Shown one piece after another: positions 903-4,804 of a stretch of DNA of 64,000 nt. The translations under genes and the position numbers were made by a program. Where the stretch lies: positions 1 through 64,000 of the forward strand of contig JAETUG010000010.1 in NCBI GenBank assembly GCA_021768705.1, in the 5' to 3' direction. Below the pieces are notes generated by a model. That model was not told the DNA's origin, searched no databases, and saw only the letters and a program-made list of their open reading frames with translations. The first letter of the stretch is position 1. Each line of letters begins with the position of its first letter. This DNA comes from Bacillota bacterium. GTDB taxonomy: Bacteria > Bacillota > Clostridia > Lachnospirales > Anaerotignaceae.

Positions 903-955
903 TTGACATACCTTGAGAATCTAGGTATAATATAAATACATAGAAGTTCTAGGTA
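903..955 (+). promoter_or_regulatory. Sigma-A type promoter with embedded palindromes (candidate PadR operator)
   Basis: TTGACA (903-908), 17-nt spacer, TATAAT (926-931); TACCT-N9-AGGTA (909-927) fills the spacer; TAGAA-G-TTCTA at 941-951. Confidence 0.75.
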
Positions 956-972
956 TTGAAAGGGGTGAAGCT

Positions 973-1710
973 ATGGCATCAGCATTATGGGGCAAATTTG
1001 CCAGTGAGGTTTTAAAAGAAGTCAAATTCAAGTACGATCATAATGCCATTCGGCAGGAATTGGTGGAGCACATGGAGGAGTTGTATGAGGATTTGCAGAC
1101 GGAGGGTATGGACGCCCATGTAGCAGAGGTGATGGCGGTGGAGTATATGGGAAATGCCGCTGAGATCGGGAAAGCCCTCAATGAGGAGCATAGCCCACTG
1201 CTGGGGTGGATCTGGAGAGCAAGCCGTTGGGCGGTCGTGGCGGTGTTTTTGGTGTGTATGGTCTGGTATGGAGGTGGAACGATACGGGCGATTGCAGCAG
1301 GAGTTTCTGCGGAATTTAAAGGAAGGGTGGTCAGTCCGTTGGCTTACTCTTTAGAAGTAGATCAAACGGTGGAATGGTACGATGCAAAGCTGCATTTTGA
1401 CGAGGTATTATACTATGAAGATGAGGTTTTGGAGATTCGGATGAGTTACTTAAACTGGAACGAAAAGTGGAAGCCGGATAGAGGAAACCATATCACTAGA
1501 TTTCAGTTGTATTTTGCCTATGAAGACGCAGAGGGAAACGTAATTATGAAGGAAGGAGGATTGGAAAATAAGTTGGGTGCGGGGGTTTATTATAAAGATC
1601 AGCTATTCCTAACGGATTTTCCCAAAAATGCAAAAAAGTTATATATTTGCTATGACAAATTTGGACGGGATTACATAGAGATCGATCTTTCGGAAGGGGG
1701 AGAAAGATGA
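973..1710 (+). CDS. HAAS/permease-prefix-like membrane protein (copy A1)
   Basis: N-terminal helical domain (KFKYDHNAIRQELVEHMEELYEDL...AEIGKAL), one TM, extracytoplasmic C-terminus; paralogous to the 2827-3546 product. Confidence 0.75.
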   Translation: MASALWGKFASEVLKEVKFKYDHNAIRQELVEHMEELYEDLQTEGMDAHVAEVMAVEYMGNAAEIGKALNEEHSPLLGWIWRASRWAVVAVFLVCMVWYGGGTIRAIAAGVSAEFKGRVVSPLAYSLEVDQTVEWYDAKLHFDEVLYYEDEVLEIRMSYLNWNEKWKPDRGNHITRFQLYFAYEDAEGNVIMKEGGLENKLGAGVYYKDQLFLTDFPKNAKKLYICYDKFGRDYIEIDLSEGGER

Positions 1711-2468
1711 AGAAAATAATCAATGCCAAGCGAAGAAGGCTAGAAATTATTTTTTGCGTGTTAGTGATTCTTTTTATGGTATTTCTGACGATGAAGGCAA
1801 ACCAACTATATATCGATCCGGAAAAGGCAGCTTTTGCGGCGCAGAGATTGGAAGGATACGACCCCTTTGAGAAGATTCTTCTGCAACAAGATTCTGTGAG
1901 AGATAATCGGAGATATTATGTGGGTTTAGGAAATCAGAAGGAGGATGCCCCATTTACCGCTATGATAGATGAATATGAAGGGAGGATTGGGAAAGAAGTC
2001 AAAAGTTTTCCTGTATATTATGATAAAGAGGGATATCTGATTATTGTGGAGCTGACAAAAGGTTTGCTTTGGCACGCAGAAGAGGTTCGCACAGAGTATT
2101 TTCGCTTTGTACCTATCAATGCTTATTATCAGGAGGACATGCAGATGCTTCTGGGGTTATGTTTACATCCGGAGATTACGGAAGTGACGATGAAATGGGG
2201 GCATTGGATGGAGGATGAAAATGGAAAATGGGTCACCTATGATATGGGAAAGGGGACATATCCCATTGGCGAGGACGGGTTCTTTTATCAGGAGGTAGAC
2301 ACAAGTAAACGGCTGCAATATGAAGATGGCAGTATTGAGAGCCTAATACAGACAACATATTTAGAAGGTCGGGACAAGGATGGAAATATTCTGTATCGAA
2401 ACGGCATTGATGATGAAGGGAATCGCTGGATCGGTGATTATGATTTTGGAATGGAAAAAGCAGATTAA
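1707..2468 (+). CDS. Membrane-anchored protein of unknown function (copy B1)
   Basis: Single N-terminal TM; shares LGLC.HPEITEV and YLEGRDKDGNILYRNG with the 3533-4165 product; 4-nt overlap with upstream gene. Confidence 0.7.
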   Translation: MKKIINAKRRRLEIIFCVLVILFMVFLTMKANQLYIDPEKAAFAAQRLEGYDPFEKILLQQDSVRDNRRYYVGLGNQKEDAPFTAMIDEYEGRIGKEVKSFPVYYDKEGYLIIVELTKGLLWHAEEVRTEYFRFVPINAYYQEDMQMLLGLCLHPEITEVTMKWGHWMEDENGKWVTYDMGKGTYPIGEDGFFYQEVDTSKRLQYEDGSIESLIQTTYLEGRDKDGNILYRNGIDDEGNRWIGDYDFGMEKAD

Positions 2469-2480
2469 GGAGGAAAGGCT

Positions 2481-2813
2481 ATGGATAAAAATTTGATCGG
2501 GGGCAGCACAGTTTTGATGTTGTTGGCTTTATTGGAAGAAAAGGACTGCTACGGCTATGAAATTATCAAGGAATTGAAGGAACGAAGCCAAAATGTATTC
2601 CAATTCAAGGAGGGGACGTTGTATCCTGTCCTGCACAGAATGGAAAATCAGGGGTATGTGAAGTCCTACAGAGCCAAGGCGGAAAGCGGCAAGGAACGGA
2701 AATATTATCGCATTACGGCGGCGGGAAAAGCCCAGTTGGCGGAGGAAAAGAAACAGTGGGAGGTTTTCAGCGGCTCCGTGGATCGGGTCATTGGAGCAAG
2801 GAGCTTCGCCTGA
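2481..2813 (+). CDS. PadR family transcriptional regulator
   Basis: GYEIIKELKERS...FKEGTLYPVLHRMENQGYV...ERKYYRIT winged-helix signature. Confidence 0.93.
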   Translation: MDKNLIGGSTVLMLLALLEEKDCYGYEIIKELKERSQNVFQFKEGTLYPVLHRMENQGYVKSYRAKAESGKERKYYRITAAGKAQLAEEKKQWEVFSGSVDRVIGARSFA

Positions 2814-2826
2814 GAGGGGGACAGGT

Positions 2827-3546
2827 ATGGAAGAGAAAAAATGGGAGGATTATATTGCGGAAGTGCTTTCCTTCGTGAAATTCAAATACGACCATCAGGC
2901 GATCCGCAGGGAATTGACGGAACACATGGAGGATCTACGGGAGGATTTGATGGCGGAAGGCATGGACGAAGCTGCGGCGGCATATATGACAGTGGTTTAT
3001 ATGGGGGATGCGGCGGAGATCGGAAAAGCCTTGGACAAGGAGCATGGGGCAGTGCTGGGGTGGATATGGAGAATTTCAAGGGCATTGGTGGTTTTGCTGG
3101 TATTTGCAACATTTACACCCTTGTGGAACACTTTGAGCAGCGCAGTAGGAAATTTTTTTGAAAGCTATGAACCCCAATCGGAAAGTGCTGAGGTCTGGCA
3201 TATAGAGTTGGATAGGGAATACCGAGACTACGATTATACGTTGCTTTTGGAGGATTTGTACTATTATAAAGATGGTACGTTGACGGTGGTGTATCGGACG
3301 AAATATAATCCCTTTGATAAAACCATTATTTGGGGTGCGACGATGACAGCGAGTGCTTTTGACGAAAGTGGGGAAAAGGCTTTTCAAGGCGGAAGTGCCT
3401 ACAAAAGTGGAGGCTATAACGGTATAGGCTGGAATAATCTGAAGGGAGTGTCGCAGGATGCCAAGTGGCTTGAAATTTATTTTGGTGATCTGACGGTGAC
3501 AGTGGATTTGGAAACGGGGGAGGTGACGGACCATGGGAAAACGTAA
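2827..3546 (+). CDS. HAAS/permease-prefix-like membrane protein (copy A2)
   Basis: KFKYDHQAIRRELTEHMEDLREDLMAEGMD...AEIGKALDKEH, paralogous to 973-1710; follows PadR directly; ATG at 2827. Confidence 0.75.
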   Translation: MEEKKWEDYIAEVLSFVKFKYDHQAIRRELTEHMEDLREDLMAEGMDEAAAAYMTVVYMGDAAEIGKALDKEHGAVLGWIWRISRALVVLLVFATFTPLWNTLSSAVGNFFESYEPQSESAEVWHIELDREYRDYDYTLLLEDLYYYKDGTLTVVYRTKYNPFDKTIIWGATMTASAFDESGEKAFQGGSAYKSGGYNGIGWNNLKGVSQDAKWLEIYFGDLTVTVDLETGEVTDHGKT

Positions 3547-4165
3547 ATGGCAGACAGTAGTATTTATTCTATTGATCGGGTTGCTTTCCTTTGCTTATAT
3601 TCGTCTGAACGATCTGTTTTTCAGCCCGGAGGAGGTTTTTTGGTCCTGCGAAAGGGGATTACAAAGCGGTCCGTCAGAAGAGATTCTATTAGAATATGAA
3701 TCTGCGGATGGCGGATTGATTTTGGTTGGCAGGCAAAAGGACGGGCTGTTTGTTGTGCCTGTGGAACGTAGCCATTTTTTTCTGTGGAAGATGCAGAAAA
3801 CTATAGATGGGGAGTATTATTGTGATGGGGATGTGGACGGATACTATAGAAGTGACGGGGTGGTACTGGGATTGTGTAAAAATCCGGAGATTACAGAGGT
3901 TTCTTTTATTTTGGGAGAATGGTCTGAATTGAGCTGGAAAGAATACACCTGTAAGGTGGAGGATAATGGGCTGATCTGGTATGACACAAAGGTGCAGGAT
4001 ATTGAGAAGTATGTAAACTACTGGGAAGGCAGAAATGCTGACGGAGAAGTGATTTACCGAGAAGGTGATGCCAATTTGGCTGAATCTTTACGAAAGGGCA
4101 ACATTCGACCTGGGAACCGAACGGTAACAAAGCCCTTTATCACTGCGCCGGTGCGGCAGGAATAA
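3533..4165 (+). CDS. Membrane-anchored protein of unknown function (copy B2)
   Basis: N-terminal TM; LGLCKNPEITEV and YWEGRNADGEVIYREG shared with copy B1. Confidence 0.7.
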   Translation: MGKRKWQTVVFILLIGLLSFAYIRLNDLFFSPEEVFWSCERGLQSGPSEEILLEYESADGGLILVGRQKDGLFVVPVERSHFFLWKMQKTIDGEYYCDGDVDGYYRSDGVVLGLCKNPEITEVSFILGEWSELSWKEYTCKVEDNGLIWYDTKVQDIEKYVNYWEGRNADGEVIYREGDANLAESLRKGNIRPGNRTVTKPFITAPVRQE

Positions 4166-4172
4166 GGGGATA

Positions 4173-4207
4173 TTTTCCCGCTTCAAGGGGAAGCGGGAAA
4201 ACTTTTT
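4173..4207 (+). terminator. Rho-independent terminator of the PadR/HAAS operon
   Basis: TTTTCCCGCTTC-AAGG-GGAAGCGGGAAAA then CTTTTT. Confidence 0.88.
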
Positions 4208-4474: not shown

Positions 4475-4546
4475 GCGCGAGTGGCTCAGTGGTAGAGCAT
4501 CGCCTTGCCAAGGCGAGGGTCGCGAGTTCGAATCTCGTCTCGCGCT
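4475..4546 (+). tRNA. tRNA-Gly (GCC) copy 1
   Basis: Acceptor GCGCGAG/CTCGCGC, anticodon loop TTGCCAA. Confidence 0.95.
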
Positions 4547-4584
4547 TTTCTTCTTCAAAGAAGAGCAAACAATTAAAAAAGGTG

Positions 4585-4613
4585 TTGACAATCAGACAGA
4601 AGTTTGATAAGAT
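4585..4613 (+). promoter_or_regulatory. Internal promoter for tRNA-Gly copies 2-3
   Basis: TTGACA, 17-nt spacer, TAAGAT. Confidence 0.65.
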
Positions 4614-4634
4614 ACATCCCGTCGAAAAAAATAT

Positions 4635-4706
4635 GCGCGAGTGGCTCAGTGGTAGAGCATCGCCTTGCCAAGGCGAGGGTCGCGAGTTCGAATCTCGTCT
4701 CGCGCT
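4635..4706 (+). tRNA. tRNA-Gly (GCC) copy 2
   Basis: Identical to copy 1. Confidence 0.95.
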
Positions 4707-4732
4707 TCTTTTTCGACAAAACAACATAGTGT

Positions 4733-4804
4733 GCGCGAGTGGCTCAGTGGTAGAGCATCGCCTTGCCAAGGCGAGGGTCGCGAGTTCGAATCTCGTCTCG
4801 CGCT
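4733..4804 (+). tRNA. tRNA-Gly (GCC) copy 3
   Basis: Identical to copy 1. Confidence 0.95.

Follow-up and report, generated by a model that had tools for sequence, protein, structure and literature searches.

A duplicated gene pair around a PadR regulator with a double operator: a candidate HAAS-PadR-type module in Anaerotignaceae

The operon and its double operator

The DNA analyzed here is a 64-kb stretch (the window) from the 1.86-Mb genome of a gut-type bacterium of the family Anaerotignaceae, in which an earlier note, made from the sequence alone, had described a PadR regulator gene flanked by two copies of a membrane-protein gene pair, called A and B. All five open reading frames were found where the note had placed them, in the order A1-B1-padR-A2-B2 on the forward strand. 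A1 (973–1710) encodes a HAAS or permease-prefix-1 domain followed by one transmembrane helix and an extracytoplasmic DUF5643-like β-sandwich, and it is followed by B1 (1707–2468), which encodes a single-pass exoprotein of an unnamed family. The gene padR (2481–2813) codes for a putative repressor of 110 amino acids, and after it come A2 (2827–3546), again with HAAS, transmembrane helix and β-sandwich, and B2 (3533–4165), whose product is a single-pass exoprotein homologous to B1. The open frame of A2 starts at a TTG at 2791, with the ATG at 2827 as the likely start. The genes are also as tightly packed as described, with junctions of, in order, a 4-nt overlap, 12 nt, 13 nt and a 14-nt overlap, and the operon (903–4201) ends in an intrinsic terminator on the same strand (4173–4201) with a 12-pair stem and a T-run.

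Transcription is expected from a sigma-A type promoter (TTGACA-17-TATAAT, 903–931, forward strand) that matches the consensus at 12/12 positions. The note had seen one palindrome in its spacer, which is present, and there are in fact two tandem imperfect palindromes of 21 bp. Operator 1 (908–928, ATACCTTGAGAATCTAGGTAT) fills the spacer between −35 and −10 and operator 2 (936–956, ATACATAGAAGTTCTAGGTAT) lies just 3' of the −10 element over the expected transcription start, with a centre-to-centre distance of 28 bp. Of the padR-A-B promoters examined, which range from Anaerotignaceae to distant Bacillota, nearly all have this double operator. The alignment of 62 operators from 31 promoters led to the consensus ATACMTAGA-N3-TCWAGGTAT, and at a score of 14, which 29 real operator sites reach, no site was obtained in 141 kb of shuffled sequence. 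The placement is equally strict: operator 1 starts directly after the −35 element (TTGACA in 23 of the 31 promoters), it shares its final two bases with the beginning of the −10 element (TATAAT in 18/31), and the two operators are 24, 26 or 28 bp apart in 30/31 promoters. The distance is almost always even; 25 bp occurs as well, in a single Anaerotignum and in two distant genomes. In Bacilli-like relatives the operator pair is present again, and two further distant genomes (G347 and G442) have one operator at the same promoter position.

A scan of the window allowing up to one mismatch returned two sites in 64 kb, both at this promoter, against a chance expectation of 0.03. The same two are the only exact sites in the whole genome, where sites with one mismatch (two) are not above a reversed-pattern control, and an exact search of 12 genomes gave no match outside the module promoter. 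As no such operator is present directly 5' of padR in the window, the single pair at 903–956 appears to control all five genes. By the simplest reading of these sequences PadR is very probably a dedicated, self-repressing regulator of one operon, because its operators are conserved at the module promoter and have no exact copies elsewhere in the tested genomes. The autoregulation proposed in the note is thereby strongly supported at the sequence level, and a wider envelope regulon governed by PadR is unsupported, the exact operators being confined to the module promoter.

The A proteins and the unnamed B family

A1 and A2 are 43% identical over 157 amino acids (E 2e-37), and the identity is highest in the N-terminal domain, which agrees with the common domain that the note had pointed out. 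Its assignment as HAAS-like also holds: the NCBIfam model NF038403 (permease prefix domain 1, cut-off 30 bits) scores 34.0 bits with A1 and 40.2 bits with A2 and matches 29/30 A proteins, and the Pfam HAAS family PF22564 is matched by 7/18 A proteins of relatives with a best E of 3e-5. The AlphaFold2 model of A2 (pLDDT 86) predicts helices at residues 2–72 with a break at residues 60–61, a long membrane helix at 75–110 and a nine-strand β-sandwich with strands between 122 and 236. For this ectodomain the closest family is DUF5643 (PF18705), which fits the predicted β-sandwich and matches A1 with E 2.9e-4 and 21.2 bits, under the Pfam gathering cut-off of 34. The best score among relatives (28.1 bits) and the match to a HAAS-less A protein (locus L168, E 2.1e-6) are under the cut-off as well, and a further difference from DUF5643 is that the A ectodomain is joined to HAAS. 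A fold match of A to PDB entry 3fbq had an E of 8.6e-4 and a TM-score of 0.31.

B1 and B2 share 24% identity over 226 columns (E 6e-17) and are thus related, as had been claimed; together with the similarity of A1 to A2 this shows that both duplications are real. In the AlphaFold2 model of B2 (pLDDT 89) a transmembrane helix (3–25) and a second helix (32–43) precede 12 strands at residues 50–178, and wide alignments of the family reveal the core motif ERGLHYGPSE and a near-invariant tryptophan. No match for B was found in Pfam (DUF4097 included), NCBIfam, PADLOC, PHROGs or the PDB, and a fold search with the B2 model gave no PDB match at E ≤ 0.001. Membership of B in a well-characterised family was therefore rejected, and B is, across all the libraries searched, the unrecognised family that the note had suspected. 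A search for relatives of B on plasmids returned none.

Distribution and descent of the pairs

In a survey of 58 Anaerotignaceae genomes A-B pairs are present in 31, of which 30 also encode a cognate PadR (defined at E<1e-50); in the 31st the locus is interrupted by a contig end. Conversely, none of the 58 genomes has a cognate PadR without A-B. The association of A-B with PadR outside the window, on which the note had made its proposal depend, is thus true of nearly every A-B genome. The remaining PadR matches are all weaker than 1e-42, and those examined precede a HAAS domain fused to membrane proteins of about 350–550 amino acids, FtsW/RodA-like in the one tested. The gene order is padR-A-B throughout Anaerotignaceae and also in distant Bacillota, where single copies were found in the genomes G091, G347, G383 and G442, in Bacilliculturomica massiliensis and in four Bacilli-like genomes. 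Matches to B were obtained in 8/391 genomes of a class-wide sample and in 5/399 of a phylum-wide sample, the window's own genome counted in. In G442 (L136:3882-5009) the A gene is broken by stops after the HAAS and membrane part, with padR and B intact.

Three further genomes (G191, G425 and G509) have B following an A ectodomain with a membrane helix and without HAAS, and at these loci (L122:4824-5842, L167:3185-4244 and L168:3390-4279) no cognate PadR adjoins. In the last of them B is split over two frames. From such pairs the A ectodomain together with B looks like the basic unit, to which the HAAS-PadR switch was attached or from which it has since been lost. A tentative extension would be that the two ectodomains, of A and of B, make up an independent receptor pair, also at the loci without HAAS and PadR, and that this pair became coupled to the HAAS-PadR switch and was copied and re-tuned in the fixed rRNA/tRNA locus of Anaerotignaceae for different extracellular ligands. 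If true, the receptor system would be modular, with a sensor that varies and a PadR/HAAS core and double operator that stay constant.

The ancestral order is padR-A-B, with A2 of the window in the ancestral position after padR. An extra pair before padR, and with it the five-gene order for which the note had suggested a survey, was found only in the window and in its congener G014; G009 from the same genus has a plain padR-A-B. In the phylogenetic trees A1-B1 of the window and A1-B1 of G014 cluster together (100/100) on a long branch, and A2 of the window clusters with G009. A derivation of A1-B1 from A2-B2 has a support of 80/85 in the B tree, with the A tree giving no resolution. The number of A-B pairs per locus varies from one to three, and as the recent clades of A and B are congruent, the pairs seem to duplicate or move as units. 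Of the tandem duplication that the note had proposed, the copying of whole pairs is hence backed, and A1-B1 may descend directly from A2-B2. A lone extra B gene stands beside another B at three loci (L033:4016-4692, L034:3434-4757 and L036:4878-6198), and one of these genes seems to have a frameshift.

In many Anaerotignaceae the operon lies between 16S/tRNA-Tyr and a tRNA-Leu-Phe-Gly cluster. This fixed, tRNA-flanked position points to vertical descent, and a mobile island was rejected for much of the family as the same tRNA genes flank the operon in many genomes. The window itself opens with the final 108 bases of a 16S rRNA gene, after which come tRNA-Tyr, a small PepSY-domain gene and the operon. 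The PepSY gene (466–840) encodes an exported protein, has its own terminator and is directly 5' of the operon; in relatives it often adjoins the module, with a matching frame of up to about 500 codons. In an Rfam search no 23S or 5S was found after the 16S rRNA gene and tRNA-Tyr (1–286), and the same is the case in two complete relatives (L108:1400-3105 and L111:7490-9204), so that this 16S copy seems to be unlinked from 23S and conserved as such in Anaerotignaceae. On the other side of the operon, at 4475–4804, there are three near-alike consecutive tRNA-Gly(gcc) genes with repeated flanks, whose copy number differs across relatives.

Within the genes following padR the conservation is unevenly distributed. 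Median identities are 68% for PadR, 47% for HAAS, 28% for the transmembrane part, 28% for the ectodomain and 30% for B. This is as expected if PadR holds HAAS in place and the ectodomains follow their ligands. Between the window and G014 the values are PadR 95%, A1 82%, B1 81% and the HAAS of A2 84% identical, yet only 33% for the A2 ectodomain and 42% for B2. Such values, as well as the varying number of pairs and the lone B genes, might suggest that A and B are a diversifying pair that recognises a bacteriocin, a protein from a neighbour or a surface ligand of host or phage, with PadR-HAAS setting the dose and conflict shaping the array. We regard this as quite improbable, as dN/dS is below 0.4 wherever it could be estimated and gives no sign of positive selection, which fast divergence by itself does not prove, and as the locus often keeps one chromosomal position, in line with vertical descent. 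There is also no PADLOC or PHROG link, for which reason a defence or phage origin of the module was rejected.

A probable HAAS-PadR-type switch and its relation to known systems

HAAS-PadR dyads, in which a membrane signal is proposed to make HAAS release or reconfigure PadR, have been put forward as an alternative to two-component systems (Ravi et al. 2024, mSystems, PMC11237479). As in that study, where a standalone PadR encoded beside a membrane protein whose HAAS is cytoplasmic is suggested to substitute for histidine kinase and response regulator, the operon has PadR beside a HAAS protein whose N-terminal HAAS/permease-prefix helices are fused to a transmembrane helix and a β-sandwich. 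We therefore read it as a HAAS-PadR circuit in which the sensor is another one and the partner, B, comes from an unnamed family. Among the fusion partners listed there are PspC, LiaI-LiaF-TM, Toastrack, FtsX/MacB, FtsW/RodA, VanZ and uncharacterised domains with two to six transmembrane helices; unlike these, HAAS in the window is found on a single-pass DUF5643-like β-sandwich protein, with a separate B exoprotein and an operon duplicated around padR.

The five genes probably form a self-contained, autorepressed HAAS-PadR-type module in which A and B are both sensor and effector. PadR dimers on both operators, one in the core promoter and one around +1, would keep the whole operon off, padR included. 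Each A protein would have its HAAS in the cytoplasm and its β-sandwich on the extracytoplasmic side. An envelope signal, perhaps envelope stress, perceived by this ectodomain by itself or jointly with B would lead HAAS to capture or remodel PadR, and the operon would open. The product would be more A and B, acting as a sensor and effector pair on the outside of the membrane, possibly with a protective function; as neither a second target operon nor further exact operator sites were found, A and B themselves are likely the output. The pair A1-B1 before padR would add a second, diverged ectodomain specificity to the one switch.

The regulator itself allows another explanation. PadR matches PF03551 with E 2.4e-28 and 98.3 bits (cut-off 27), is 68–95% identical to the cognate PadRs in Anaerotignaceae, and with its 110 amino acids belongs to the small PadR subfamily. 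Drugs can bind directly to small PadR proteins, LmrR being an example, and in LmrR the binding lies in the C-terminal helix region, where PadR has an invariant tryptophan (W93). Like bcPadR1 and LmrR (PadR subfamily 2), it has the recognition helix EGTLYPxLxRxE and a probable autoregulatory circuit with a membrane-protein target, and the membrane protein governed by bcPadR1 increases resistance to the bacteriocin AS-48 (PMC3506622). PadR could hence sense an amphipathic drug or bacteriocin directly, with A and B as resistance effectors and HAAS as a mere prefix, and a regulon confined to the own operon would suit such a dedicated resistance switch. Still, we consider this unlikely. HAAS is the best-conserved part of A and stays with PadR, and the three A-B pairs without HAAS have no adjoining cognate PadR, which argues for a HAAS-PadR link; classic resistance genes, such as one for an ABC pump, are also absent from the operon. 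The operator differs as well, with TACMTAGA-N3-TCTAKGTA occurring twice in the promoter compared to the ATGT/ACAT type described in PMC3506622.

Some points nevertheless weigh against the proposed HAAS-PadR-type module. No match of A1 or A2 in the window to PF22564 reached the cut-off. In the dyad HAAS has three helices, the third of them kinked and with a conserved GxP motif; this position reads G-N-A or G-D-A in A1 and A2 (G[DN][ASP] in the family). Drug binding as in LmrR means that HAAS need not be the sensor arm, and the pattern of the operator scan was strict, so that weaker second targets could escape.

Precedents come from Listeria, where LltR, LstR and LftR strongly repress their own operons and each regulator mostly has just one or two target units (Hauf et al. 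2019, PMC6624303). The LltR operon lmo0599-0600-0601 likewise consists of padR, a gene for a DUF1700 (HAAS superfamily) membrane protein and an exoprotein gene, is autorepressed about 150-fold and is nearly the only target of its regulator (PMC6624303). In contrast to A and B, Lmo0600 is multi-spanning and Lmo0601 is a DUF4097 protein. In Listeria it is the DUF1700 protein that makes derepression of the PadR operon toxic, since overproduction of Lmo0600 halts growth in the cold (PMC6624303), and the module might similarly be an accessory membrane operon without any sensing, in which PadR only keeps a harmful membrane protein low. This is very improbable, since HAAS, ectodomain and B are co-conserved over Bacillota with a retained regulator, a pattern that would be difficult to account for if induction brought no benefit.

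PadR-HAAS-FtsW/RodA operons of the LstR-Lmo0421 type, one of which is present in the window's own genome (G000:C9:85330-85948; L137:2822-4574), resemble the module in that several relatives have a promoter flanked or overlapped by tandem operators. They differ in the FtsW/RodA/SpoVE-like effector and in their operators, ATATATAGA..TCTATATAT compared to TACMTAGA..TCTAKGTA of the module. Relatives carry tandem operators of the form ATATATAGAT..ATCnATATAT. Two orthogonal PadR codes may thus coexist in one cell.

In summary, the proposal of the HAAS-PadR dyad was derived from genome context only, and the papers found here give neither a mapped operator nor a defined input for it. The locus described here is a compact test case, with one operon, one double operator, one probable conserved cytoplasmic contact and fast-evolving outside parts. 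Of most value in it are the conserved double operator, whose code permits the prediction of targets and separates the module from FtsW-type PadR-HAAS switches in the same cell, and B, a newly delimited, unnamed family of Bacillota that is nearly always partnered with A.

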